64,000 bases of DNA, taken from Cornus controversa. Its lineage: Eukaryota > Streptophyta > Magnoliopsida > Cornales > Cornaceae. Under the pieces are notes generated by a model. The model saw only the letters and a list, made by a program, of their open reading frames with translations. It searched no databases and was not told where the DNA came from. How positions within the stretch are numbered: the first letter of the stretch is position 1; every line of letters begins with the position of its first letter. The DNA is taken from the NCBI GenBank assembly GCA_026545225.1, contig CM048845.1, positions 107,954,533-108,018,532 on the forward strand, read 5' to 3'. The translations under genes were made by a program, and so were the position numbers. Shown in pieces: positions 4,401 through 61,300 of the stretch.

Positions 4401-5199
4401 AATAAAATTGTGTTAGTTGAGTAAATGAAAATTGAAAATCGCCACCACAATATTCATAAGACTGATCTAATGACAAAAAATATCATTTAATAAAGGGTTG
4501 AAATGTGGCAGTGTATAATCCATCAAATTGAATTTTGTAACAAAAAAAATAACTCAGATTGAAAAAATAATGAATTCTAGGGTTCATGGAGGAGAAAATA
4601 TGAATAATTGGTTATGAGATGAATGAATGTAGGGGTTGTTGTATTTATAGAGATGAAAAAAGAAAAAAAAACAAAAAAATAAAAAAATAGTTTTCAAACA
4701 TTTTTTTCTTAATAGAGCCATTTGGAACCGTGCCAAACGGCTCTAATGCTAGCACCTGAATTTTTTTTTTTTTTAAAAAGCCATCAAAAATCACAAAAAC
4801 TTGAAAAAAATTCATTTTAAAAGGCCAAACAACACCTTACCAAAAATTGCAACAATCACATGGCCGTTGATTTTTGAAATTGATTACACTAGCCCATCAT
4901 TTTGTTTCGACCGATGAAACGTCAAATTCTGCTAATGCTATGCTCATTGTGGGACTTATTTTTTCATTGGAGTATATTTTTCTGCCTTGTATTGTGCTTT
5001 GACTAAGTCGTGACAGATGCTCTAATTTATCCTATATTCAATACTTTTTGTCATGATTCATGAATTAATGTTGTCTAAAAAATAAGCTATTACTCATGCG
5101 TAACCAAAAAATTTTTATTAAAAGATAGATCGATTCAGAAGCACTTTTTATATTTTTTTATTATTTATTTACAGTATTATAAGAAGCAACTGAAAATGC
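4401..5199. other. intergenic DNA upstream of L47
   Basis: AT-rich, with A and T runs at 4650-4790. No coding signal was seen. The proximal promoter of the L47 gene presumably lies near 5050-5200, but I cannot point to a confident TATA box. Confidence 0.4.
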
Positions 5200-10559: not shown

Positions 10560-10937
10560 CTTTGATTTATGATAATATTAAAATGTTAAGATGGTTGGTC
10601 GGATTGACTAGAAGAGATAGGGTTACTAATTGAAGTGTGAGAGAAATATTAGGAATGACAACCCATTAGTGAGAAAATAAAAGAGAGTAGACTTAGATGG
10701 TATCGACACATTCAACAAAGACCTATAGATGCGTCGGTAAGAAGAGGAAGATTAGTTTTCATAAAAGATAGAAGATAGAGAGGGCGACCTAAATTAACGT
10801 AGGATGAAGTTATTAAAAATGGTTTTAAAATGTTACATATAGTAGGTGAAATGACGTGTAATAGAAAAGAATGAAAAAGGAGAATTCTTGGTGCTGACCC
10901 CATTTATATGGGATTAAGGCAAGGATGATGATGATTT
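10560..10937 (+). mobile_element. RTE-like LINE 3' end
   Basis: Collinear with the last part of the LINE at 7990-8992: a region matching the R-W-x-G-H-x-x-R-R-P-x-D-A tail, then a segment ending ATATGGGATTAAGGCAAGG and the GATGATGATGAT tail. Non-functional 5'-truncated copy. Confidence 0.7.
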
Positions 10938-39497: not shown

Positions 39498-42400
39498 CTT
39501 GCATGGTCCAGCTAAACTTTTTTTCCCCCCAACACTTTGGCGTGGTTCGAATTGCTTGCTTCATGCTCCAAGTGACATGATCACCCCTAACCATAAAATT
39601 GATAGCCCAGCATACCTGATTGACAATTTAAGTGATGGTAGCAACCGTCGTAAATTCATAATGGTAACGTTAGTGATGTAATGAACATGTGTGATGTTAA
39701 GGGCTGTCCAAGCTTTGAATTTTTCAACCTTGCCCAACTCCAAAGTTGTTGATATTGTCATGCCCCCAAATTAAAATACAGGGAACTCTAGTCTAGTACT
39801 TGAATTTGGTGCGCGACTTGAAATACAACATCCATCTTATCAAACATTCATCCAATATTTTCATACTACAATCAAAATATGATCATCTAGATCACCCATT
39901 TCAAAAACTTTATATGGAGACCTCGTCCTACATCTTGAAATCATCTATGCACAACAAAAAAAATTACATGCCAAAATGATTAATTTGAAACGAAACACAA
40001 CCACCTTCTGCCACCAAGCCTATGCACAACAGCCCACAAAACACACCTTCATCACCATCTTGTCCCAACCAAACAAGACCATCTCCCAAACAAGACCCAA
40101 CAACTCCATCTTTCACACCACCACTTGAACTACAATAGTCATCAGAAATTAATTACACATGCACATGCATAGCCACACTAAATACACCCATAAGTATATA
40201 TGTATATATAAAAGTAAAGAATATTTCTATCATATGACTATAGGTATATCCACTATAGCCGAAAAAGAGAGAAAATATATATCTCTATATATATACCCAT
40301 GCACACCATTTTTTAGCCAAAGCTACAATCCCATTCAACTACTGCCTTGTACATACAAATCAACCCACAACATCAAGTATATCAATATATATATGCATAC
40401 AATAACTATGCCACTGTAATCTATATCATATAATTTCTAGACAATACATTACTCCAAAATTCATATGCATGCATTCAAATTCATATGTGCCCAACAAAAT
40501 TCTTAAAGAAACCAATTAACTTCAAGAACCAACTAACATGATATATATATCTATATAGGTATAAGGGCAAGAATCAACTTGACTGTTAATGGCTGAGTCT
40601 TCTTCTACTCCTCTTCTCTTTCTTCTCTAGCTGTACCTTCCTCTCTCTCTCTCTCCTCTATTCTACAGAGACCATATTCTCTTCTTCTTTTATTTTATTA
40701 CAAGTATACATATACTATATACATTTCACTTAGTGGGCTCATAGTTGTTAAAGGCTCGAGGCGCACTAAGGTGCTAAGGCTTCTTAGCGCCTGAGGCGCG
40801 AGGTGCGGGCCTGACTGAAGTGAGGCGTAAGTTGATTTTTTATATTTAAAAATATAACATTTGTAGTGAGTGAGTGAAACAATGTAGAACAACTACAATT
40901 GAGAGCAAATAAAAAGCATATTCATGGCAATTAACAACAAATGAAATAGAAAAACAGATTCTGGAGTGAGTGAAAAGTGAGAACTGAGGAGATGCTTGTA
41001 ATTCAATTATCTGGACATAGCAAACTATTTACATGACAACCTCCCCATTATGAAAGTAGAATACTAAGCGCCAAAAAAAACTATTAATTAGTGAAGTTAG
41101 ATCACAACATTACTTCAAAGATTAAAAAAAAAAACAGAAAAAGAAGAAGAAAAGGTTCTGTAGGAAAACAGATTAAAAAAATTAAAAAAATTGGGCATGC
41201 ATAGGTTCTACAGGCTGCGCCTCGCTCCCCAGTGCTGAGGCGCGCGCCTCTTTCAAAGCGCATCGCTTAGGCATACCCTAGGCGCTTCGCTGCGCCTCAC
41301 GCCTCAGGTGCGACTCACGCGCCTTTGACAACTATGAGTCTGGTCAACACATGAATAAGAGAGTCTCCCCATGCTAGCCATTTGTCACCCATGCATACAC
41401 TTGTCTGTCACTTCCATTCTAATTCCAATTTTTTTTTTCATACATCCAAAATTACATTCCTAACCCTATAAAACTTTAATTTACCTTTGGATCCTAAAAG
41501 AATAAGGACAAAAAAAAATCCTATTTAATTTTAAGGATATTACAAACTGCCCTCCTAGAAAGAAATTTCGTTCTCGAAATTTGCGTACCTTATTCGAAAA
41601 GTTGTAGATATTTTTCCATCATCTTTGATTTCAATTCCCATGTACCTTCTCTTTTGTTATGATGACTCCACTGCACCTTCACAAGTGGTATCTCTGTCCG
41701 TCTTAATTGCTTCACTATACGATCCACAATGCGGACAGGGGTCTCAATATATGTAGTATCAGGGCATAACTCCACCTCGCTATTGTCAATGGCTTGAGTC
41801 TCAACTCTCAAACATTTCCTTAACATGGAGACATGGAAAACATCATGAACTACTACTAAACTGGAAGGTAAAGCTAACCTATATGCCACTTCCTTCCCTA
41901 ATTCTTTTGGGTTGGGTTTTAATTGGGTCAAGTGAATTCAAAATGGATTAGTTGTTTGAGTTGGCTATTGTGTTGGGCTACTATGAGTTGTATTTGGATA
42001 TGGTCTTGGTTAGTAGTGGGCTTGTACAATGAAGTTGAGCCCGTTTGAGGTTGGTTTTAAATTGGGTTTGAAATTATTGGGTTATGTCGTAGGCCTAGAC
42101 AATTGGTTGGGTTTAAAGATGGACTTGGTGGAATGGATTAGGTCGGAATTTAAAATAAGCCCAGTATCATTTAAAAGAGATAAATGGTTGCTTGACATTG
42201 GACTGAGCCGAAATTAAGAATAGGCCTAATAACATTTAAAAGAATATGAGTTAAGTTAACAATTCTGTTTAGGCCTATAGTGTTATGGACCTGGACTGAG
42301 ATTAAATTTTATGTGTTTCAGTATAATAGAACTTTTTATGTAGGAATAGTGAGTTCTAAGGATTAAAATCCGAATAACGATTTTTTAGCATGTTGAACAC

Positions 42401-43587
42401 ACAACTCGGTCATTTAATTTATTAAATGTTAAAAACATTTAATAAATTATAAAAGATGAAATGTTGGATTAAAGAACGTTTTGTTTTCCTTTTGTTTAAA
42501 ATTAGAAAAATTTGGGAGAAATATCTTTTAATGCTCTAAAAATTTAAAAAATCTTAGAGTGGTATATTCCTGCATCTAAACTTAGTTATATTAAAATAAT
42601 TAAGTTTAGAAAAGATTTAAGTGGTGAACTCCGAATTTGATTAATTAATGTGATTTGTGATCACATTAAAGAACGATTTGATTTATTAAATGTTAAATGC
42701 ATTTGGTAAATCTAAAAGGCTTGAAAATATTAAAAATGAGATAAAATTCCTAATGTAATATTCTTAAAATTAAATAGAATTTTTTTTTTATCTTTATTCT
42801 TTTAGGATCCAAAGGTAAATTAGAGTTTTGTGGGGTTACGAATGTAATTTTGGATGTATGAAAAAAAAATAAAATTTGAAATTAGAATAGAAGTGGCAGA
42901 CAAATGTATGCATGGTTGACAAATGGTTGGCACGAGGAGACTCTTATGCATGAGTTGACCAGCCCACTAAGTGAAGTGTATATAGTATATGTATACTTGT
43001 AATAAAGAGAAGAGGAGGAGAAGAAGACTCAACCATTAACAGTCAAGTTGATTCTTGCCCTTATATATATATATCATGTTAGTTGGTTCTTGAAGTTAAT
43101 TGGTTTCTTTAAGAATTTTATTGGGTATATATGAATTTGAATGCATGCATGTGGATTTTGGATTAATGTATTATTTGAAAATTATATAATATAGATTGCA
43201 GTGGCATGGTTATTGTATGCATATATATATTGATATACTTGATGATGTGGGTTGATTTGTATGTATAAGGCAGTAGTTGAATGGGATTGTAGCTTTGGCC
43301 GAAAAATGGTGGGCATGGGTATATATATAGAGTTATATATTCCCTTTTTCGGTTGTAGTGGGTATACCTATAGTCATATGATAGAAATCTTCTTTACCTT
43401 TATATATATATATATATACTCTTATTGGTGTAGTTAGTGGGGCTTTGCATGTGTATGTGTAATTAATTTCTGATGACTATTGTAGTTCAAGTGGTGGTGT
43501 TTGGGACGAGATGGTGATGAAGGTGTGTTTTTTGGGCTGTTGTGCATAGGGATGACAATTTTGTCCGCCCCGCCGGGTTTCCGCCCC

Positions 43588-43622
<35 letters not shown>

Positions 43623-46318
43623 TTTAGGGCTGGTATGGGAGCCATTTTTTTCCGTGGGGGCGGGTTTGGGAAAAAAAATCAAAACCCGCCGCGGGTACGG
43701 GACTCTATAATAACCCGCCCCGCCTATATATTTTATTATTATAAATATATTTATATATATATATATATATATATACAAATTATAATTTTACTTTTGGTTG
43801 TATTAAGACTTATGTTTTCATTTTATCTTTTTGTTGTATTAACACTTCTTTAATTGTTGGATCAAACTTGTTACTAAGTTATTTAGTTATGAAATATTTT
43901 CTGTAATAGGCTATTTAATTGTGGAATCTTGTCATTTTACTTCTTAAACAGGGGTTATACTATTTTAAATTTAATAGTATCAAACTTGGTACTACCCACT
44001 AGGCTCGTATTTTTTGAAAAAATTAATTTTTATTAATGTTTGATGTGGTTACAATTTTGTGGGGAGGGGTCCTGTCTCATCCCGTCCCTTTTGAAATTTT
44101 AAACGGGGCGGGGCGGGGACGGGGTGGGGTTTCTCCCAACGGGGCGGGGATGGGTTTTGAAATTCCGTCCCGTTTCAAACCCGCGGTGGGTTTGGTAATA
44201 GTGTTGAAGGCAACGGGGCGGGGACGGGTTTAGGCAAACCCGTGCCGTACCCGCCTCGTTGCCATCCCTAGTTGTGCATAGGCTTGGTGGCAGAAGGTGG
44301 TTGTGTCTGGTTTCAAATTAATTCTTTTGGGTTGCATTTTTATTTGGGTCAAGTAAATTCAAAATGGATTAGTTGTTTGGGTTGACCATGGTGTTGGGCT
44401 ACTGTGAATTGTATTTGGTGATGATCTTGGTTAGTAGTGGGCTTGCACAATTAAGTTGAGCCTATATAGAGAATTGGGCTGGAATGGGTTTGAGGTTAGT
44501 TTTAAATTGGGTTTGAAATTGTTGGGCTATGTCTTAGGCCTAGACAAGTGGTTGGGTTTAATGATGGACTGGGCCAAAATTAAGAATAGGCCCAATAACA
44601 TTTAAAAGAGATAAATGATGGCTTGATATTGGATTGGGCCGAAATTAAGAATAGACCCAATATCATTTAAAAGAATATGAGTCAAGTTAACAATTCTGTT
44701 TGGGCCTATAGTGTTATGGACCTGTACTGTGGGATTAAATTTTATGTGTTTCAGCATAATAGAACTTTTTATGTAGGAATAGTTGGTTCTAAGGATTAAA
44801 ACCCGAATAACTACTTTTGAGCATGTTGAATACACAACTCGGTCATTTAATTTATTAAATGTTAAAAACATTTAATAAATTATAAAAGATGAAATATTGG
44901 ATTAAAGAATGTTTTGTTTTCCTTTTGTTTAAAATTAGTTTGAGAAACATATCTTTTAATGCTCTAAAAATTTAGGAAATCTTAGGGTGGTACATTTTGG
45001 CATAATAAAATTAATTATGCTAAAATAATTAAGTTTATAATAAATTTAAGTGGTGAAATCTTAAATTGAAAAATTAATGTGATTAGTGATCACATTAAAG
45101 ACTGATTTGATTTATTAAATGTTAAAAGCATTTGGTAAATCTTAAAAGCTTGAAATTATTGAAATGAGATAAAATTCTTAACCATTTGAGAGTCTCCCCA
45201 TGCCAACCATTTGTCAACCATGCATACCCTTGTCTGCTACTTCCATTCTAATTCCAATTTTTTTTTCATACATCCAAAATTACATTTCTAACTCCACAAA
45301 ACTCTAATTTACCTTTAGATCCTAAAAGAATAAAGACAAAAAAAAAAAATCCTATTTAATTTTAAGGATATTACATTAGGAATTTTATCTCATTTTCAAT
45401 ATTTTCAAGCCTTTTAGATTTACCAAATGCGTTTAACATTTAATAAATCAAATCGTTCTTTAATGTGATCACTTATCACATTAATTAATCAAATTCGGAG
45501 TTCACCACTTAAATATTTTCTAAACTTAATTATTTTGGCATAACTAAGTTTAGATGCAGGAATATATCACTCTAAGATTTCCTAAATTTTTAGAGCATTA
45601 AAAAATATTTTTTTCAAATTTTAAACAAAAGGAAAATAAAACGTTCTTTAATCCAACATTTCATCTTTTACAATTTGCTAAATACTTTTAACATTTAATA
45701 AATTAAATGACCGAGTTGTGTGTTCAACATGTTCAAAAGTCGTTATTCGGTGTTAACATAACCCATATCCTTTTAAATGTTATTGGGCATATTCTTAATT
45801 TCCGCCCAGTCCAATGTCAAGCCACCATTTATCTCTTTTAAATGATACTGGGCTTATTTTAAATTCCGGCTCCATCCATTCCACCAAGTCCATCATTAAA
45901 CCTAACCAGGCCTAAGACATAGCCCAACAATTTCAAACCCAATTTAAAACCAACCTCAAAAGTCAAACCTATTCCAACCCAATTCGCTATATAGGCTCAA
46001 CTTAATTGTAGAAACCCACTACTAACCAAGACCATCTCCAAATATAACTCAGAATAGCCCAACACTAAGGCCAACTCAAACAACTAATCCATTTTGAATT
46101 CACTTGACCCAATTAAAACCCAATCCAAAAGAATTAATTTGAAACCAAACACAACAACCCACAAAACACACCTTCATCACCATCTCGTCCCAACCAAACA
46201 CAACCATCTCCCAAACAAGACCCAGCAACTCTATCATTCACACCACCACTTGAACTATAATAGTTATTAGAAATTAATTATACATGCACATGCATAGCCA
46301 CACTAACTACACCCATAA

Positions 46319-46368
<50 letters not shown>

Positions 46369-49300
46369 GTAAAGAAGATTTCTATCATATGACTATAGGT
46401 ATACCCACTATAGCCGAAAAAGAGAGAAAATATGTAACTCTATATATGCCCATGCATACCATTTTTCGGCCAAAGCTACAATCCCATTCAACTACTACCT
46501 TGTACATACAAATCAACTCACACCATCAAGTATATCAATATATATATGCATACAATAACCATGCCACTGTAATCTATATCATATAATTTCTAGACAATAC
46601 ATTACTCCAAAATCTACATGCATGCATTCAAATTCATATATGCCCAACAAAATTCTTAAAGAAATCAATTAAATTCAAGAACCAACTAACATGATATATA
46701 TATATATATATATATATAAGGGCAAGAATCAGCTTGCTTGTTAATGGTTGAATTTTCTTCTCCTCCTCTTCTCTTTCTTCTTCTTCTTCTTCTTCTTTTC
46801 TCTCTCTCTCTAGCCGTACCTTCTTCTCTCTCTATTTTCTCTATTCTGTAGAGACCATATTCTCTTCTTTTATTTTATTACAAGTATACATTTACTATAT
46901 ATATTTCACTTAGTGGGTTGGTCAACACATGCATAAGAGAGTTTCCCCATGCTAACCATTTGTCGCCCATGCATACACTTGTCTACCACTTTCATTCTAT
47001 TTCCAATTTTTTTTTTTGTGTGTGGCTATGCATGTGTAATTAATTTTTGATGACTATTATAGTTCAAGTGGTGGTGTGAATGATGGAGTTGCTGGGTCTT
47101 GTTTGGGAGATGGTTGTGTTTGGTTGGGACAAGATGGTGATGAGGGTGTGTTTTGTGGGCTGTTGTGCATAGGCTTGGTGGCAGAAGGTGGTTGTGTTTG
47201 GTTTCAAATTAATCCTTTTGGCATGTAATATTTTTTTGGGTACATAGATGATTTTCAAGATGTAGGACGAAGTCTCTATATAAAGTTTTTGTAATGGATG
47301 ATCTAGATGATCATATTTTAATTGTATTATATAAATATTGAATGAATGTATGGTAAGATGTATGTTGTATTTCAAGTCGCGCACCAAATTCAAGTATTAG
47401 ACTAGAGTTCCCTATATTTTAATTTGGGGGCGTGACAGATATGTTATTGAATCCCATAAATTTGGGTTTCTCATGAATCATAATGAATTGTTTTGAATTT
47501 TTGAAGATGATTTAATATGGATAACAATTAGTGTATTTATTTTGAAGTCGCTAACTGTAATACCCCGCTCCAACACATGGTATGATATTGTCCGCTTTGG
47601 GCCATAACCCGCACGGTTTTGCTCTTGGGTTTTACCCCAAAAGGCCTCATACCATTTGAAGAGAACATACTACATATAAGCACATCCCCTTCTCCACACC
47701 CAGGCAATGTGGGATTGAGCACCCTGTACCCTGTCAGTGTGGTAGCTCAGCCCAGTGTCTGTCTTCGCACCCGCCCACTCACACCCGTCCACAAGGGTTA
47801 CTACAATCCACCCCCCTACGAGGCCCGACGCCCTCGTCGGCACACTTCCGGCTGGGTTCAGGCTCTGATACCAACTGTAATACCCCGCTCCAACACATGG
47901 TATGATATTGTCCGCTTTGGGCTTGAGTCCGCACGGTTTTGCTCTTGAGTTTTACTCCAAATGACCTCATACCATTTGAAGAGAACATACTACATATAAG
48001 CACATCCCCTTCTCCACACCCAGGCGATGTGGGATTGAGCACCCTGTATCCTGTCAGTGTGGTAGCTCAGCCCAGTGTCTGTCTTCGCACCCGCCCACTC
48101 ACACCCGTCCACAAGGGTTACTACACTAACAGAAATAAAAACTTACTATTTTTTTTTACCTTTTATTATTTTTTTGACGACAAATGCACTTGAATAGGAA
48201 ACATATAAAAGTTATTAAACAAAACATGTTATATAGAATATGTCTCTATGTTTCGGAATATAATTATAGGATTTACTTCTAACTTTTAACTATAGTTGTA
48301 TGGAGAAAAGGAGAGAATATTTTATGTTAGACCTGGCGACGATCTCTCTAGATTAAATTATAACTATAACTTCATGTCAGATTTAATCAATAATATCAAG
48401 TGAAAATAAGAAAATTACCACTGGGCCATTGGACAAGTGGTATGAGCTCTCCTCTCCAAAGGAGAGGTGAGCAGTTTGAGCCCCAAAAAGACGAACTCAT
48501 AAAACTTTAAAACTTGCCGATTTATGGAAGATTTTGATTCAAGAACTAAGCTTCAATCTTGTGTATTTAGAACTCTTGGAGGATAGATTATAAACTTTGA
48601 GGAGGGCCTTAGATAGAAGCCTGAAATTTAGGATGAAAAAGGAATACAAGTTTTAGGTATATAATTCATTGCTGAAACAGGCCATTATGGCATCGTCATA
48701 AAGGTTATGGTCCATTATGGACCATCATGCACGATAACCGTCATGATAATATTCTTCCCATTGAGAGCATAGAGGGAACATTATCCACTGTTACTGTTAT
48801 ATAATGTTTCTTACACCCATAAAGGGGGTTATTTAAAACAATGCAGATTAGAGAATCCCCTAATTAGGACTAGAATTCATACCGGTTCCTTGTGTGCTAC
48901 TTGAAGAGATTTTGTCTTTGGTGAATGGATACGTTGTTCAGTAGCATTAAATGTATAGGAATAGGAATACTTGTTAAGGAAAGATAAAGTAACAGTTTTA
49001 CAAATCTCAACATCCGATTTAATTGTGCCCAGTTTATGAATTTGTTGTTTCTTGGTCATCCTACTTTTTGTCCCACAATGCATGACTGGTTTAATAAATT
49101 TTATAGAATTCACCTTGCAATTTTAGAGGTAAAAGCACTCTTCCATTTAACCTATACTACTTTAATTGATTAACATCATCTCTAGCTTCTGTCTTTGTGA
49201 ATAATTGAGTCGAGGTAATTAAAATGCTTGCTTTTTGTATTATCTATCTTCCTTGACCTTCACTACTTCCTCACTTTTTTTTCTCCTTCTAGTTCTGCTA

Positions 49301-52300
49301 AACATACATGTCATATATTCAGTTTTTTCAAACCCTCTCTATTTTAGAGCTTCTATCCATACCTCTTAGTTATTATTGTCCTTGCTCTATTTTCATTTAT
49401 CACAATATAGAAGGGAAAAAAAAAAAGAAAAAGAAAATAAATCCATGCTCTAGTTTCATTAACTAAAATAATATCTCAGCAAATTGCATACACCTTAGAG
49501 TATCATTCTAAATGTGTTTTGTCAGTTCATTAGTAATTGACGCAAAAAGATATGGGCTTAATGTTGATATTTTATGTTGATCTTGAGTAATTGGTAATTC
49601 ACTTGTTCTCCCACTGTTGTAACTATGATTACTGTGCCATCGTACATGTCATTGTCATATCAATATATTCATTTGTTACTCTGTCTTTTCTAAAACAAAC
49701 TATATTATATCTCTAAGGATTCTCTCCTAGGTTTTCTCATAAAATTTGTATCAAGATTTTTTTTCTCTCTCTCTCTGTTCCATTAGTCTTCTCAATATTA
49801 AATAGTTTCCACTCTTGACCCTCCCGGCAAAATTCCAAGTTGATTTTCAAGACTGCAGTTTCATGTGTTAGTCATTGTTCAATTTCTTTTTCCAAAGTTT
49901 CACTCATTAATTTTATACACGATAGTATGTACAATTTTGAATTTCCAGCTTAATTTAATGTATAGGCTAATACTTTTGCATCACTCAGTTGGCATTTTCT
50001 TAGTTATTATTATGTTATTGAACAACGTTGTTAGGCTAAAACACTATCATCCCCCAAGTACTTCCAAGTCTCAATAGGAATGCAATCTAGTCTTAAATCT
50101 ATTCTCCTTTTTATATAATTTAAATTGTATAATTAGATTAAGTTATTTTTTGGTTCATATATTTTAAGGAAGGGGGGGGGGGGGGAGAGGGAAAGAGAGG
50201 TCTGATCCGCTCTTTCTGTTGGGCTGTCTGCCATTGGTATTGTCAGCTGCTTCACTGTCACTCTGGGATAAAATTCAAGGCACTCTTCGTACCCACAAGA
50301 AGCCAATCACAGTTTGTTTGTGGAATGTTAGAGCACTACCCTCCTTCAGCGAATTGTGTGGCTAGGAATGTTGAACCTGTTTAATATTCATTGTCAAAAT
50401 GAACGTGTGAGGGGAACATTAGGTATAGTGCCTATAAATGATAAAATAGGTAAAATAGACTTAGGTGGTATGGTCATATTTAATGTAGACCCGATGATGC
50501 ACCTATTAAAAGAGGAAGAGTTGTTTGTTTAGAAGGTAAGAGGTGTATGGTCATATTCAATGTAGACCTGATGATGCACCTATTAAAAGAGGAAGAGTTG
50601 TTTGTTTAGAAGGTAAGGCCAAAGCTTACGTGGGATGATGTAATTAAAAACGACGTAAAAAACTTAAATTTAAGAGAAGACATGGTGTATAATTGGAAAG
50701 AATGGAAAAAGAGAATTCATGTTGCCGCCCCCATCCATATGGGGATAAAGTCAAGGATGATGATGATGTATAAGCTTGTTCAAGGGGTGTATCTCTAGGA
50801 TTTATTCTTAATTTCTTGCACCTTTGAGAAGCATGAGATATGTCCTTCTAGACATTGTGTGCAGATGATCTCCTTAAATCAAGCATTTTCTATACCCAAC
50901 AGATCAAAGTGGCAGTTCAATCAGAAAGTAAAGTCCAGTTCAGATACTAGCAGTGATGAGTAATGTCATTAGTACCATACACGTAATCAGCTGCTGAAAA
51001 TTTGAAGCCTGGTCTACGTGATAACCATGATTTTCTCATGCCAAAGCCATTATATTAAATTTGTGGACCCATTTTTTTTCTATAATCTTTTAAAAAATGA
51101 AACAGCTCCTTTAAAATTAACTTTGAAGAGGTAAAAAAATCTTGTAATGGTGTTTTTGGGGATCAACTGATAATTCCAGAGTTAGAGAATAATGTGAAAA
51201 GAAAATATCAAATTTACGCTGTCAGAACTTCTTAAAAATAATAATCACGTTCAAGAAATAATTCTGAACCAGGATATACCCATCTCATATAAGGGCTAAT
51301 GTTGTCATCTGTAATGTCAGTGTCCTTGGTGATTCTTGTATTGGTGGGAATTAATGGTAACTGGTTAGTCCCAATGACTAGTGATGATCACCTCATGATC
51401 TTAGTGTTCTGGAACCAATTTGAAGTCCTGCTGTTTGGTTCATGAAGGAATATAAATCAATGTAAAGAAGTAAAGGATAAGTGTAACACCCTCACCCTTA
51501 ACCCAACACAATCTTGTCTGCCTTTGGGTCCCCTCGACCAGAGACTTCCTTGGGGGTCACCCATCCTAGTACTTCTCCCAGTTAAACACGCTTAACTGCG
51601 GAGTTCTGGTGGGTTCACGACTATTACGGCTTTAAAACGCGCTGTGTTATAGAAGGGTGATGAACATACATATAACACTTCACCAGACCCAGGCGATGTG
51701 GGATCGTGACACCCGTAGCCTGCTAGTGTTCGCCCACACTGCACCCGCCCACAGAGGTTGTCACAATAAGGGACCAAGGATTTTAAATCATATATAGGTG
51801 AAGTACTTTAGTACATAAATACCCGTAATTGAAGTGCATAATAACTGATAGGGTCAAACTATCATTCCCTAAATGTTTCACATATGCTGCTGATTACTTT
51901 AGGGTGTTGAGAAGCATGGTTTTTTCTTTTGACAGAATCACATTTCTAGAATAGTAACAGCATCAGCTATTCAGATATCGTTCTTTGTTTAAAGCCTGAA
52001 ATTGTAGTTCCATTTTTTTTGATTGAAAATGGCTAACTTCTTATTATTTTATCTTATCTTCTAGGATTCCCAATACTCGGGGTTGAGTGGCAGAAGATGG
52101 AGAATCCTGATTTGCGTCTGGCAATGGGGATGAAACCTGATCAGAAGGGTGTTCGTATCAGAAGAATTGATCCTACTGCTCCAGAATCTAAGGTTTTGAT
52201 GCCGAATGATATCATCCTCAGTTTTGATGGGGTTGATATTGCTAATGATGGAACGGGTAAGTGTCCTGTTCTTCCCTAGCCAGCTAGCCCAAATATTTTC

Positions 52301-55300
52301 TTGATTTTATCTTACACTTTTTTGGGTATCATGTACCAGAGTTTAGACTCACACTTGTATTCATGTATGTTCTTGCTTCTAAGTAAATCTGGTTTGTCCA
52401 GTTAAACTTGTTTTTCCTGCAGCATAGTAGTTTATTCATGATATTCTTATTATTTCAGTCACTTCCTTAATTTTATGATTTTTTTTCATTGTCTAGTAAC
52501 AGCAAATATTTTTTTCTTTTGAGATCTCTAATCTTCTTTAAGGTCGTCAAATCGTATTACTATATCAGTTGCTGTTGTCTTTTGATAGAGTTAACTTCAC
52601 GCTTTGTTCTAAAGTGTGATAATCTTTATAAGTTTCAAGGGATATGTTTTCTGTTGAAGGATTTATATATTTAAGTTACACCCTCTCTAACAGTTTAAGC
52701 TTTTAAAGTTGATGGTTGTGAACATGGTATCAGAACCAAAGGTTTTGAGTTCAAACCTCACCGTCACCCTGATAATTAAAATTGAAACACGTGTTGGACC
52801 AAAAGAAGGTCACACGTGAGGGGACGTGTTGAAGGACTTATATATTTAAGTTACACCCTCTCTAACAGCTTAAGCTTTTAAAGTAGATAGTTGTTAACAT
52901 TTTCTTTGTAAGGGCCCACCAAAATTTACCCCTTGGTACTTTATCACGTGCATTCTTTAATCTATGAAAACTATGTGCAAGTCTTTTTGTTTACTTCTAA
53001 ATCTTCTATTAATTGTCTAATTAAATCAATGGCCTCTATAGTGGACATTGTATATTCATTTCTTAGTCTTTGCTCTATAACCCTTTCCTATAATTTTGAC
53101 TCATTAATTCAATTCCTCAATGATTACGAGAAATTTGAATATCCCCTTTATTTTTATAAATTGCTTGTATATTAGTTTTTCTCCACTCATTAAGCATCAT
53201 TCCTTCTTTTAGAATTTTATTTAATAAATTTGTTAGTAATTTAATTTATACTTTCCCTAAAGTTCTCCATGTTTGGATTGGTATATGAAGCAAACAGAAA
53301 AACAAGAAGTCCTCTTGCAGTGGTAAGATGGACTAGGGTTACTCCAATCAACGTCAGAGCCAAGATTTCTAAAGGGAAATTTGGGAAAAGCCTATGGAAT
53401 ACTTTATAAACTGATATCTCAAAATTATATTGATTTAATACTTGGTTACAGAAGATAAGATAGTTGACCCTTATATAAGGGCTCTATTAATGACACCTGA
53501 CCTTTTCTAGGCTGACTTTCAAACTCCCCAAAAAGCATTAATAACAGTTCCTATTCCTTTTCCCTTACATATTCAGATTCCCCACAAAGTAATTACTACT
53601 TAATAGACTTTGATTACACTTTCCAAGACACTACCATTAATGATTTGCATCAGACCCTCCTCCTTGGAGAAAACTCGCTCTTAAGTTCGAAACAATTTAC
53701 CACAATCAAGGAAGAACCTGAGTAAAGCTTTCCATCCTTTCTTTCTTCTTTTCCTTACTCGAAGAAAACACAATAATCTTCTTTCACCAACAAAGAAGAC
53801 ATTTTCAACCTCTTGCCAGCTACTATAATAATCGTCTGCACATAAAACGTGCTTGTACTTTTGCAAGGCTTGTCTCATTTGACTGATCTCATTCTTGAGT
53901 GGATCACTTTCATACAAGTGGCAACTGCACATGGTAAGAACATCCAGAGCAGCATCCACTTCCCATCTGTGCAAGTATATGAGGGCATGTCTAGCTGCCA
54001 GCTGTTTATCCTTCAGGTGTAGACAATACTGCCAACTATTGCTCCAAATGCCATGACCAGCATAACCTTGAGATTGCCCATAAACAAGTATATTTTCATC
54101 GACGCATTCAATTAGTAGCTGAAATAGCCGGTCTGAAGCTCCATTGCATAAACAATGATCCGAAAGAACAAGAGCATCGATTAATTTTCATTCATCAATC
54201 AACTGCTCCATTGCTGTTTCATAGGACCCTTCATTCTCCCAATCAAAAGAAACGAAAACTGTCTTACCAAATTCAGCAAGTTCAGATTTTGGAGAATCAA
54301 GCGAAGGATCAGGAGATAGTTGAGGTCTGGCAAAGCAGTTGATATGGTAGATCTAGCAGCGATTTCATCAACTTCTGACTCGGTATTGCTATCATGTTAA
54401 CGGAATTGCTTGATTGCAGTTCTTACTTCGTGTCTAACAACACCATCTTCTGTTGTACGTTCAGGGGTTATAGCAAACTCGGAAACTCAATGAAGTTTAG
54501 TTTGCATTTGTATGCAATGGTTCAAAGTTGGAAGCCTTTCAGATTGAACAAGAGCAAACTCATAGAACAACCTGTCAGCATCAGGTGTCTGTAGCAAAAG
54601 CAATCCATCATTTGAGGAACCACATGTGGTTGAATTGTTACCATGGTACAATAAACTACTCCCAAACACACATGCCAACACAGCCCTTACTAGAGATAGT
54701 TTAACAAAATGCTTCACTATGTCTAGCTGAAGAGGGTGCAGAGGGATACCCGGTGCAGCTGAGGAACAGCCATAAGAATTTGGCTTAGTTTCTCTAGAAG
54801 AGAGGGAAAGATACTTACTTTCCAGGCAACTGTTAGAATAACTGAAAATCACTGGAATGCATTCCCAACCATGACCAGACCATGGAGGATAGACAAGAGG
54901 TACTGTTGTGAAAAACAACCGCGAACCAAGCATAATCACAAAACACGACACAAAACGAAACAAGCATAACACACAGAACACAAGAATTTAAGTGATTCGG
55001 CGATGTGTCTACGTCTACGATGAAGATCCGGCGAAAGTTTTCACTATGCGAAAATTAGGAGATTACAAGTTTCAACCCCAAACCCTAACTCTCGCTCTCT
55101 CTCTCTTTCTGTGTTTTCAGTGTTTTTTCTTGTTTTTCACTCCAAACCCTTAGATGCCCTTATATATTGGGCTATAAGAGAGTCCTAATCCGGGTCCAAA
55201 ACCCGCAAGCGAAAAACGGGTTGTAAAATTTTTCGGGTCGCGTTGGACTAAGACAAAATTTGGGCCACAACATAACAGGTACACGTACTGAAATTACTCC

Positions 55301-58300
55301 GTAGAGAAAATCATCACACACAATTTCTGCTACCTTTTCAACAGCATCAGTGCTGCTTGGATAAAAAACCAGACGGGTTAAAAAGATCTTTAGGGAACTT
55401 ATACATGAGTGAGAAATAGTTAAAATCATGAGTTGTACCAGTCCCTTCAACTATGTTAACTATTGCAGCAAGACGGCGCATAAATTGTGATAGATAAATT
55501 GTGGGCTTGGTACTCAAAGGGCCAAATAATCTCTTTCTAGCATCTTTGATGTCATAAACCAGCAGGCTGCACATTACTTTTACCGGTTGATAAACTGATT
55601 GATGCCTGTTTGATAGCTCTTAACCCAAGTCCTAAAACTCTATCCTTTTCATTGTCTAGAAGAACTTTCCTATCAGGATATGAACCATCCCCTTTCGTAT
55701 CATATCCTTCTGTTTCTTCATCAGCGACAGCCCTTGCAAGGTTGTGAAGCTTACCACTTAGAAACTGCCGCTTCCCCATGTGAGCAGCTTCAATTATTTG
55801 ATGCAACAGAGCGAGGGCATGTTCCCTATTTCCTTACCCGTGAGACTCTTTTGATGAAGAAATGGTAATCTCCCCAGATAAGATGGCCTGAAGAGCTGGA
55901 GGTTTATTCTCAAATCTGCCATATGCAGATTTAATAATGTCAGCTGCCTCAGCTTTTGACACTTTGTTTGCTGCTTCTTCTGACTTCTCCTCTTCCACAT
56001 TTTTTTCTTCATATTCCGGTTGATTGTTGTCAATTTCTGGAAACAATGAAGTTGAATGTATCCCCATGATCTCATCTTCTTCATCTATAATTCCAAAAGA
56101 TTCATCAAATGTTGAGTTGATATCAACATAATTCCCAAGATCTTCCTCAACCAAGAGTTGTTTTCTGTCAATATTGTGGCTGTTTTCATTTCTAGGGAAC
56201 TTGGCAGACTTGAATCTTGAATCCTCACATGTGTAGGACCAAAATTCAGGTTCTTTAGTACGTTTCACCGTTGATGTGCATGTGCTTTGTGATCTGGCAG
56301 TTCCTTGTTTTGGACTTCTAGACTGAATATGGCAATGAAATTGATGTTGTTTTAAAAGTGTAAAATAAATCGTAAGTGTACGAATCTATTGAAGTATAGA
56401 TCGGCAAGAACGAGGTCGAACCCAAGGGAATGCTTTGAGAAGGAAAACTAATACAAATTCAAATTAATTTAAAACTAATTTAGTTTAAACAAAAGTTGGT
56501 TGATTTGAGAGAAATTAAACTAACATGCAAATAAAATAACACTATTGAAATCAAATAGAGAAAATAACTAAGGTGTCGGATTTCACCACCATTAAATCCA
56601 TGAAGCTTCTAATATTCATTTATTAATCCCCAAATTTAGAGTAGCAATCAAGAAATCAATCTATTGCTTACTCAAGATTTAACAATAAAGCACTATGAAA
56701 CATATATTAAGAAGGTAGATTTTCCTTCGCTTCACTAGTGTAAAATTCTAAGCATCTTATGAATCTAATTTATTGAAAAACATAAGATCAAAGATTATCA
56801 CTTTTAAGAAATACAAACCTAAGCTTAGATTAATTATAATACTTTATAACTACCACATATACATGATATAGATGGTGAAAGAACTATAAAATAATTAATC
56901 ACAAGAAGCGAAAATCATAAGCATTTAAATCATACACATGGGAATCAATTAATGAATAAAAGAACTTCACTTCATTAATGGAGGTTTCCTCCTCAACCCT
57001 AGTTGAGGAGTTTAGTTACACATGGTAGAAGAAGATAACAAATAAATAAAAGACATAATAAAATAAATAAAACCTAGATTGTCTCTGTCTTCTCTGCCTT
57101 GGCCTCCACTTGTTTTCTCCTCCTCAACCCTACTCATCTCTCTCTCTTATATAGAGGTCCTCTAGGGTGTTCTCAAAGTAAAAGAAAATAGGAAAGTGTT
57201 TAAGAGAAAATCTGCCAGAATATTTTTTCTGAATTGAAATCCAATTTTGACCTTGAATTAGTGTGATTCACGAAATTTTCATGAAATACAAATATCTCCA
57301 GAATCGAATTTCCTTCAACCAACGCGGAAATCAAGTCGAATTGAGGCTCAGAAATAAGACTTTCGGGCCGTTTTCCAAAACGGGATTAAAACTGGATTAT
57401 GCGCAGAATTGGGTTTCAGGCCTGGAATCTCCTTAAGCAATTGTAATTCTCTTGGACCATTTCCTTCGGCTATTTTGAATTAAAATATAGAGTTGAATGG
57501 ATTCATTTGATGTAGGCTTCATCTAACCCTCTTAAATGTCTTCTTTAAAAGTCCAAAAATCATGGTTTTAACTGAAATAATCATTAAGACCCTGAAAAGA
57601 CAAAAAATATAAAAATAGAGTAAAATCACAAATAAACTATCACAAAGAGAATAAAATATGCAAATTAAGAGACTAGAATGCATAACATTCAACGCCAATC
57701 AGAATTCTCTATCGAGCAGGCTGCATTACCCAATTTTCACCTTGATATGCCTTTGTTTGCTGCCCTCTTTGTCTCCCAATGTCCAGTTTATGTGAAATGA
57801 TTCCATATTGTTCTAATAAAGTACTCAATCGAGAAATTTGGTGTTGCAGATTTTGAAAGTTTTCTTTTGTGGCTATCTTGCTTCCTTGCCTAGCCATTGA
57901 TCCGCAGTAATCACAGATCTGCAGGAAAGGAAAGGCTCTAATACCACTTGAAGCAAACAAAAAAACAGCAAGTCCTCTTGCAGTAGTAAGATGGACTAGG
58001 GTTACTCCAATCAATGTCAAAACCAAGATTTCTAAAGGAAAATTTGGGAAAAGCCTGTGGAATACTTTATAAACTGCTATATCAAAATTATATTGATTGA
58101 ATACTTGGTTACAGAAGATAAGATAGTTGACCCTTATAAGGGCTCTTTTAATGACACCTGAACTTTTCTAGACTGACTTTCAAACTCCACAAAAAGTATT
58201 AATAACAGTTCCTATTACTTTTCCCATCATACATATTTAGATTTTTCACACAATAATTACTACTTAATAGACTTTGACTACACTTTCCAAGACACTACCA

Positions 58301-61300
58301 TTAATGATTTGCATCAGTATATTATCAGGTCCTACCGCTTCATTTTTACCCATTTTTTTAAGTGCATCCTCTGTCTCTCCATCTTTGTCTCTCTATTATT
58401 TATCCTATTTACCAATCCTATTTTAGGTTCTTCCTTGTGATTACTTCTTTAGAATATTCTTCATTTAATAGTTGTTAAAAGTATTTTTTTCATATACTTG
58501 ATATGCAATTTCTTTAACTAATATCTTTTGATTTACGTCCTTAATGCATCTAATTTTATTCATATCTCTAGTCAACCTATCTCTATTCTTTTCAGCTTGT
58601 AAATCTCTTTTTCACCTTCGCTTGAATCTAAATTTTCATATAAATCATTTAATGAATTTTCTTTAGCTTTATTTACCAACTTTTTAGGTTTATTTTTGAT
58701 TTTTTTTAGTAGTTTTCTAAGTCCTGCTTTTTGGTTTTCTGCCCCCATCCTTAAAACTCTCTTTATTTTGTATTACTTGTTGTTCTTCATCACCATATTC
58801 CTTCTTGCTTTAGTTTTTCCAAGTCTCCTTCACTACATTCCTGATATAATTTTTCATTTTAATCATATATTGTTTACATTGTCATCCCAATTCCATTACT
58901 TTTCTTGTAATAGTTTTTCTCTAATGCTACCCTGTGAATTCTTTCCATCTTATTTGTTGATGCCCTCTCTTGCTTTTTGATTCTTGAATCCTTTAATTGA
59001 CAGGTCTAAATTGTCTAATAACAATAACTAATGTTGATTTGTTAAACTCTCACTAGGAATTACCTTACAACCTTTACACATGGTCTATTCCCTTATTTTA
59101 TTTAAAAAAAAAGTAATTTGTGTTTTATTTAAACCACTCTTAAATGTCATTACATGCTCTTTTTTTTTATTTTTTATACATGTATTTGCTATAACTAATT
59201 CATTTGATTTTCCAAATTCTAAGAGCGTTATCTTCATTTTTTTCACCAAAACCATATCCTCCATGAATTTGTGTGTATCTTGTTCTCTAAACTTCGACAT
59301 GATCACTGAATTCACCTCCTATATGTACTTTCATGACTTGGCATAATTTGTATTATTTCATTTGGCAATTCCCAAAATATCCTTTATGTGTTCTATCTAA
59401 TGCTCTGCATTTATTTAACACCATAGTATCTAATAATATTTTATAGTTAATTAATCTATCTCATTCTTTCTAACTCTTAGAACTTTATTTCTCATGTAAT
59501 TGTCTACTACCTATGAAGCAGGAATTCCTCTCCCAAGGCCCCGTGGCCGTATTGGACACGTGTCCAGTATGGATATGCCAAGACATGTGTTCGATACTCC
59601 TTGGAAGTATCCGTTTTTTTTAAATAATTTTTTAATTTCGGATATGGCTGGGATACGCAAGGATACTCGGGGATATGCCGAGGATACTTTTGGGATACAC
59701 TGAGAATACTTCTGGGATATGCAATGCAAATTTGAATTTTTTTTTTTTTTTTTAAAATGGGGGTCAGATTGTGATATTAAAAAGTTAGATAGGTTAAAAA
59801 GTAGGGCTCAAATTGTAAGGTGGAAGGAAAAGTCTGTAAGAACTTGAAGGTGTGAAACTAAATCATGTGTTATATTATTATTTATATATATATATATATA
59901 TATATATTTTGCCTTATCCTGCTGTACCTGTATCCTTTTTTTTTTAGATTTTTCATATCACCGTATTCGTATCATATCGTATCCGTATTCCGTATCCGTG
60001 TCCGTGCTTCATAGTCTACTACTATACTTGTCCCATTTCTATGATTATCTTTATCACCTGAATAAAAAAGTTTGTATCTTCTTCAATTTCTCTAGCCTTT
60101 TCTCCTTTCCATTTATTTGCTTGTAGACAAACTATGTTGATGTTACTTCTTTTCAATGTGTCCATAAGTTCATTACACTTGCAAGTTATTTTCCTCATAT
60201 TCTATTAAAATATACTACGAAACTTGAAATACGATCAGCTATCTAATATCAGTGTTACCCTCTACTAACCTAATCATGGGAGTTGCAGTGTGCTGTTGGG
60301 ACAAGAGTGTGCAGAGGACAACAAAAGCTAAACAAATAAATAAGTTCATTAAACTAGAAATAAATAAAAGATCACAATGGAGTAAGTCAGCTGGTGGAAT
60401 ATTCAGCTTCACATTTGATATGATGAAAAAGTTTATTGGATGCACTATCATGGTGTAAACCATTGCCTGTTTTGGATGCATATATATAGATCTTCCTTAT
60501 TCTATCAATTTTTCACCATTAAATCAGTTGTTCACCGAGAATACAGCACCATCTCAGGATTTTTGGTGGAAGCAGTTATTATTTCTCCCTAACAAATCAT
60601 AGTGTTGATTTGTGTTTTTTCTAGTCAATAAATTATGGAAAAATTACACCGACTTCTCCTAAAATTAGGCATAAATAATTATAGAGACCTCCCTTATAGT
60701 TTTAAAAATAACACTGACCTCCCCTCTCAGTTAACTTGTTAGACATTGGTAACGGAATACATAAAATGGCTTTTTTACCCATAACTTATTTAATACTTCT
60801 TTCTTAAAAAATAAGGTTAATTGCAAAAAAAACCCTGTCCTATATAAGTTCTTGCAAGTTGCCCATACATTGCAACTTGCCCCCTCAACTATTGAAAATG
60901 TTACAATTTGCCCTCTCTAAAGGGAGGTATCCTGCAACATTTTCAATAGATAATGGGGCAGATTGCAATGTAGGGAGCAACTTGCAAAAACTTGTATAGT
61001 ATAGGTGGGTTTCTTGCAAATAACCCTCAAATATATCAGAAGTCAATATAACTTTGAAGGACTATTTTGTCCTCCATTTCATTCTTTGTTTTCCTTTTGT
61101 TCCACTGCGTTCCTCTCTCTATTCATCCCCCCCCCCCCCCCCCCCCCCCCCCCTCTTAAAATAGAAGAGAGAAAACTTGCACACACTCTCTCTTAAATAC
61201 ATCACTGTAGCTGAGGACTTCGATTGTGTTTCGTCGGACGCCGTCGCAACTTTCAGCTACAGTGAATTGCTAATAATTCACCTTTGGAACATTTTTAGCT

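Follow-up and report, generated by a model that had tools for sequence, protein, structure and literature searches.

How did the spliced messenger RNA (mRNA) of a host gene come to lie inside a long terminal repeat (LTR) retrotransposon? The question is raised by a 64,000-nt stretch of the Cornus controversa assembly GCA_026545225.1 (contig CM048845.1, positions 107,954,533 to 108,018,532 of the forward strand; hereafter the window), in which an LTR element on the minus strand (53286-58316) holds sequence resembling the gene ZFYVE26. An original prediction made from the letters alone took this to be an element that carries a host-gene copy instead of gag-pol, captured by template switching. 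We find it near certain that an LTR element captured a spliced host ZFYVE26-like mRNA, and we conclude that the capture took place in the ancestor of at least nine loci, not in the window copy. The route probably ran through a spliced chimeric RNA, formed in cis or in trans, and one template switch. The features on which the argument draws are these, in window positions; a caret below marks an exon border or seam.

53281-53285, no strand: target-site duplication (TSD) GTATA, left
53286-53652, minus: LTR of 367 bp, the 3' LTR in element sense
53653-53665, minus: polypurine tract (PPT) AAGGAGGAGGGTC, placed by eye
53666-53804, minus: 3' internal region of the element family, common to uncaptured loci (family loci without the ZFYVE26 segment)
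53805-53807, minus: 3' seam, TGA common to parent exon H (GTTGA^GGCAG) and element (TGA^AAAGG)
53805-53809, minus: ZFYVE26 exon H, first 5 nt (GTTGA)
53810-53887, minus: ZFYVE26 exon G
53888-53978, minus: ZFYVE26 exon F
53979-54203, minus: ZFYVE26 exon E
54204-54535, minus: ZFYVE26 exon D
54536-55385, minus: ZFYVE26 exon C, split by a nested solo LTR
54904-55277: nested solo LTR, 374 bp, TG...CA, with exact TSD GGTAC (54899-54903 / 55278-55282)
55386-55754, minus: ZFYVE26 exon B
55755-55908, minus: ZFYVE26 exon A
55908-55909, minus: 5' seam, element ..TTTGAG joined to exon A (G/A)ATAAACC, with a putative cryptic splice donor
55909-56341, minus: element-family interior with a terminal BAG6-like IQ motif
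56342-57701: nested solo LTR, 1360 bp, TG...CA, TSD GAAAT/GAATT (1 mismatch)
57702-57897, minus: start of the element's own open reading frame (ORF; MARQGSK...)
57934-57946, minus: primer binding site (PBS) TGGTATTAGAGCC
57949-58316, minus: LTR of 368 bp, the 5' LTR in element sense
58317-58321, no strand: TSD GTATA, right

The element has the expected outline of an LTR retrotransposon. Its two LTRs are direct repeats with TG...CA ends, 91.6% identical across 370 columns, and GTATA is exact on both sides. The PBS-like sequence, which we take to be complementary to the initiator-methionine transfer RNA (tRNA-iMet-like), lies two bases inward of the right-hand LTR and sets the minus-strand reading; the purine tract adjoins the left-hand LTR, and both were placed by eye. 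The perfect duplication, the PBS and the matched LTR lengths of the original prediction are all borne out, as is its interior without pol motifs: 6 ORF pieces run against Pfam gave 0 families above cut-off. By eye, a degenerate long interspersed nuclear element on the minus strand (58317-60201), putatively of L1 type by its motifs, seems to host the element.

Spliced host complementary DNA sits between the PBS and the PPT. The host-derived stretch runs from 55908 to 53805, in the sense orientation of the element, and is ZFYVE26-like (AT2G25730-type). It had been put at about 2.3 kb; its sense orientation and lack of introns are real, and its size is about 1.73 kb once the nested insertion is subtracted. 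The best plant protein match to its pieces has an E value of 5e-227, and 308 plant ZFYVE26-like proteins reach E 0.001 or better (7,978 candidates scored; 120 listed). Four of these proteins were compared piecewise with the interior, and for most pieces the Cornus florida protein was the most identical (57-88% per piece). The human ZFYVE26 chain 8yad_C in PDB matches the last piece (E 2.5e-5), and the 4 other pieces have no ZFYVE26 match there. A ZFYVE26 origin of the whole interior, up to 56330, was ruled out: homology begins at exon A, and the piece upstream is common to uncaptured loci.

We searched the host assembly (771.7 Mb, 61 contigs) and located the parent ZFYVE26-like gene on the same contig as the window (C1:72.80-72.88 Mb, minus strand). 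The window copy consists of seven parent exons in order (A-G; 154, 368, 464, 342, 225, 91 and 78 bp), then 5 nt of exon H. Each of parent exons A-G is preceded by AG and succeeded by GT, and the parent reading frame is open over exons A-H, with 0 stops. Seven introns are precisely gone from the captured copy, including the one before the 5-nt remnant of the eighth exon. The parent is therefore not intron-less over the captured region, and capture of genomic DNA is excluded.

The window element is not a unique object: the assembly holds at least nine loci with the capture, this one included, and a search with DNA query 53670-54895 recovered copies both with and without it. The 44 matches (40 of 67 candidates scored) comprise 10 rows for nine capture loci, one of them split by an insertion, 5 rows for parent exons and 29 short matches to the 3' part of the element. 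Among the short matches, 18 stop at the seam (query 136-139, that is 53805-53808) and 11 stop at most 27 bases before or at most 17 beyond it; one is an element within the parent gene. With a 430-bp query from upstream of the captured exons, 40 of 50 candidates were scored and 42 matches resulted, with 8 rows for capture copies, 1 in the parent gene and the remainder taken as uncaptured family loci. The 3' seam is the same in all nine capture copies save for point changes, and the 5' seam in 8 of 9, which are all those retaining that end (the C6 copy has no such end). Because all readable copies have these seams in common, we conclude that a single capture was followed by amplification. The C8 copy has its own exact TSD, AGGAA; those of the other copies were checked in part.

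An intron-free copy within an LTR element could also have arisen as a ZFYVE26 processed pseudogene inserted into an ordinary element. Neither end of the segment, however, shows poly-A or a TSD belonging to it; each passes directly into element sequence, and the segment runs from exon A to 5 nt into exon H. Its identical seams at different loci further indicate that it moved as part of the element, and we regard this origin, together with capture of genomic DNA, as extremely improbable.

On comparison of the copies, the two nested solo LTRs (54904-55277 and 56342-57701) are later insertions that enlarged the interior, as both are absent from the three other capture copies aligned (C8, C9 and C3:15.17 Mb). 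The 1.36-kb stretch was thereby rejected as a component of the capture: it is a solo LTR missing in the three relatives compared. The small solo-LTR family of 54904-55277 also occurs in sense at positions 4421-4815 of the uncaptured sibling L042, so the window element and this sibling received independent insertions.

Distances (Kimura two-parameter) are 0.029-0.097 between copies and 0.095-0.140 between copies and parent. In a tree of the copies, midpoint-rooted for drawing and with the C6 row 38% filled, a split with support 100/99 sets the copy at C1:44.97 Mb, together with the parent, apart from the other eight. This first-branching copy (L035, C1:44,963,000-44,971,000) has a different U3; its LTRs are about 73% identical to the window LTR in part and 76-79% identical to those of L055, the element in the parent gene. 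The mismatch suggests that LTR parts were probably swapped within the captured lineage.

Amplification to at least nine loci and the sense orientation might suggest that the captured exons came under selection as a coding or regulatory gene, a matter of later fate and not of origin. The private changes of the copies argue otherwise. They fall at codon positions 1, 2 and 3 in numbers of 92, 68 and 81, and the 241 changes comprise 69 synonymous (0.286), 161 non-synonymous and 11 stop changes, with a neutral expectation of 0.284, 0.682 and 0.034; the count omits sites present in fewer than five copies and those showing other patterns. The synonymous share thus equals the neutral expectation, and all four copies translated, the window copy among them, have broken reading frames. 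The passenger decays neutrally with undetectable coding constraint, and selection on it is very doubtful.

We then consider the two seams in turn. At the 3' seam, the parent reads CAAGAG^GTTGAGGCAG, the element TTCATGAAAAGG and the captured copies CAAGAGGTTGAAAATG: parent sequence continues through the first 5 nt of exon H, and element sequence takes over at the common TGA. A template switch, as had been predicted for the capture as a whole, would fit this seam. Splicing was rejected here, since the element acceptor AAG^TTCATGAAAA predicts a product that does not match, whereas 5 nt of exon H with a TGA overlap does.

The 5' seam has a different character. Parent exon A starts ttttccag^GATAAACC (in a longer read, ttttccag^GATAAACCTCC), and L042 reads ...GGATTTGAG^GTGAGAAAG at the corresponding point (longer read, ...GGATTTGAG^GTGAGAAAGTGGGAACC). 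Captured copies read ...GGATTTGAG, with small changes, and then (G/A)ATAAACCTCC. The first exon base is A in seven of the eight copies (GAG^AATAAACC) and G in the remaining one (GAG^GATAAACC), the first-branching copy at C1:44.97 Mb, which holds the exact splice product GAGGATAAACC. The 1,035-nt interior of L042 has four GTRAG sites and a single AG^GTRAG, which is the GAG^GTGAGA at the seam. Juxtaposing this element site with the exon A acceptor gives the seam as the expected product of splicing. GTRAG stands at the donor point in five of the eight uncaptured loci read (L042, L039, L054, L059 and L061).

Alternatively, reverse transcriptase might have switched templates at both seams, between an element RNA and a normal ZFYVE26 mRNA that chance had packaged together, as in the LTR-mediated retroposition model. 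Switching at short similarities is on record (PMC5408686), and the TGA overlap at the 3' seam would suit such a route. With two switches, however, the 5' seam would have to land both on the precise start of an exon and on the one AG^GTRAG that the sibling interior contains. Computed over a 2,152-nt stretch of mRNA with the L042 interior, the share of possible element-mRNA seams that hit an exon start and GTRAG jointly is 2.0e-5 if no microhomology is required and 6.3e-4 if four bases are. The part of the predicted template switching that concerns this end is not supported: the 5' seam appears better explained by RNA splicing, and two switches seem unlikely.

Where did the donor site come from? 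The family interior at 56341-55909, common to other family loci, has just before the seam an IQ motif like that of BAG family regulator 6 (BAG6). The segment matches a Camellia BAG6-like protein at E 7e-7 (best of 5; 114 candidates), and in L042 it is 62% identical to BAG6-like sequence over 45 residues; the BAG6-like part spans only 40-60 residues. The Pfam IQ model gave E 0.0019 on the family interior, under its cut-off. A host BAG6-like gene lies at C9:55.94 Mb, and the IQ segment was probably itself captured from BAG6. As the donor site lies within this segment, the splice site may have come from a host fragment acquired earlier.

Uncaptured members speak to the idea that the host copy stands in place of gag-pol. 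In four of them, about 1.8-2.2 kb long, no pol-like ORF was found (ORF lists by eye; Pfam on the ORFs of two), and the copia-like pol pieces of L042 are situated outside its LTRs. The host copy is therefore not a gag-pol substitute, and the absence of pol points to mobilisation in trans. A shorter uncaptured subfamily (L010, L013 and L014) diverges from the captured one at a point about 90 nt ahead of the 5' seam, where its coding stretch is a different one. For the 281-aa ORF of L013, a search of the protein collection (616 candidates) yielded no relative at E 0.001, and no Pfam family passed its cut-off.

We hypothesize that a non-autonomous element captured part of a spliced ZFYVE26-like mRNA once and then spread as a passenger subfamily, helped in trans. 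An element would have inserted in sense orientation within the ZFYVE26 gene, upstream of exon A. Splicing of a transcript started in its LTR would have joined the cryptic donor GAG^GTGAGA, within the BAG6-like IQ segment, with the acceptor of exon A, and the downstream introns would have been removed normally. This chimeric RNA, with its PBS and 5' element sequence, would have been packaged alongside ordinary element RNA. Reverse transcription, begun at the 3' end of the ordinary RNA, would then have switched to the chimeric RNA at the TGA microhomology, 5 nt into exon H. We infer these four steps as events.

A family element does sit in sense in an intron of the parent gene, which counts in favour of this scheme. 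This element, L055 (C1:72,840,009-72,841,825, in the region C1:72,839,000-72,843,000), is diverged and precedes exon A by three or four exons. Its identity to the window element is 75-76% over the LTR and 5' interior and 85% in a 174-bp part of the 3' region. L042, located elsewhere, reaches 87% over the interior where L055 has 75-76%; this interior identity and a missing donor segment rule out L055 as the direct donor.

Several observations weigh against the spliced-RNA scheme. The donor insertion was not found, L055 being the sole family member in the 38.4 kb read of the roughly 79-kb gene; it may have been lost, never fixed or be in the unread part, or splicing may have occurred in trans. 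GTRAG is missing at the donor point in three of the eight uncaptured loci read (L038, L052 and L053). L042 is a sibling and not the true donor, so that the chance share given above serves as a guide and not as a formal test. Seven of the eight copies lack the exact splice product, and a G-to-A change must be assumed for them. AGG is common to the mRNA (GGAACAGGATAAACC) and the element (TTTGAGGTGAG) at the 5' seam, where a template switch is thus also possible, and the 3' seam, read as a switch, is itself just 5 nt from an exon border.

Trans-splicing of a separate element transcript to ZFYVE26 pre-mRNA, which needs no element inserted in the gene, would account for the lack of a suitable donor in the part read and would fit the exact splice product equally well. 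It has no evidence of its own, however, and the sense copy L055 in the gene indicates that intron insertions do happen. We count it within the probability given to a spliced chimeric RNA, of which it takes a small part, and by itself consider it rather improbable.

Elsewhere in the window, positions 39756-47437 are densely packed with nested repeats, direct and inverted, that are about 75-300 bp long and 76-95% alike. At 50468-50617 lies a pair of 73-bp copies, 97% alike, whose starts are 77 bp apart, with a third match (64%) at 10700.

The likeness to maize Bs1 that was first proposed is apt, as both are LTR elements that have host coding sequence within them and enclose more than one host-derived piece, here the ZFYVE26 exons and, by inference, the BAG6-like IQ segment. 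The same host segment also recurs in multiple element copies, at the loci described above, a Bs1-like trait. Bs1 is reported to contain segments of three genes and to have turned into a chimeric gene that is transcribed and translated (PMC13317346); unlike it, the passenger here decays. The 5' seam at a splice donor and acceptor is a feature of the window element, and Bs1 junctions lie outside this comparison. The small non-autonomous LTR families known as terminal-repeat retrotransposons in miniature (TRIMs) are mobilised in trans. Like them, the window family is short and has no pol, and its mobilisation is probably of the same kind; unlike them, it has a longer interior, in which an ORF of its own begins and pieces of host origin lie.

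That plant LTR elements capture genes is already known. A survey counted 672, 1,343 and 424 LTR-captured genes in rice, sorghum and maize (PMC3726574), and a pepper study of retroduplicated nucleotide-binding leucine-rich repeat genes lists spliced mRNA and the loss of introns among their features (PMC5664825); these survey-type studies likewise concern host genes within plant LTR elements. The texts consulted explain capture by template switching (PMC13317346, PMC5408686). In the partial texts examined, no description of splice-site seams for plant LTR captures was found, and one may still exist in print.

A further parallel is retroviral. In the transduction model, a readthrough RNA is packaged and then recombines at its 3' side. 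For avian leukosis virus c-erbB and Moloney murine leukemia virus c-myb, an LTR-started transcript reads through and is spliced into downstream host exons (PMC3186009), and reference titles matching the two-step model appear in PMC515179. The captures are alike in a 5' seam at a donor/acceptor pair and a 3' seam inside an exon at short homology. They differ in that the element here is intracellular, of a plant and without pol, and its donor is a cryptic site within sequence that is probably of host origin. The nine loci could tentatively, with confidence a little short of even, be read by this analogy as the fossil record of a retroviral-oncogene-like two-step capture by a pol-less plant element, in which a BAG6-derived donor allowed one capture to enable the next.

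The seam record is the new part. A single assembly holds the parent gene, siblings without the capture and nine loci with it, so that both seams are legible to the base. They suggest splicing as an entry route for host exons into LTR elements. Under such a route, the first captured base of an LTR-captured gene would be expected to coincide frequently with an exon start, which existing genomes could show.

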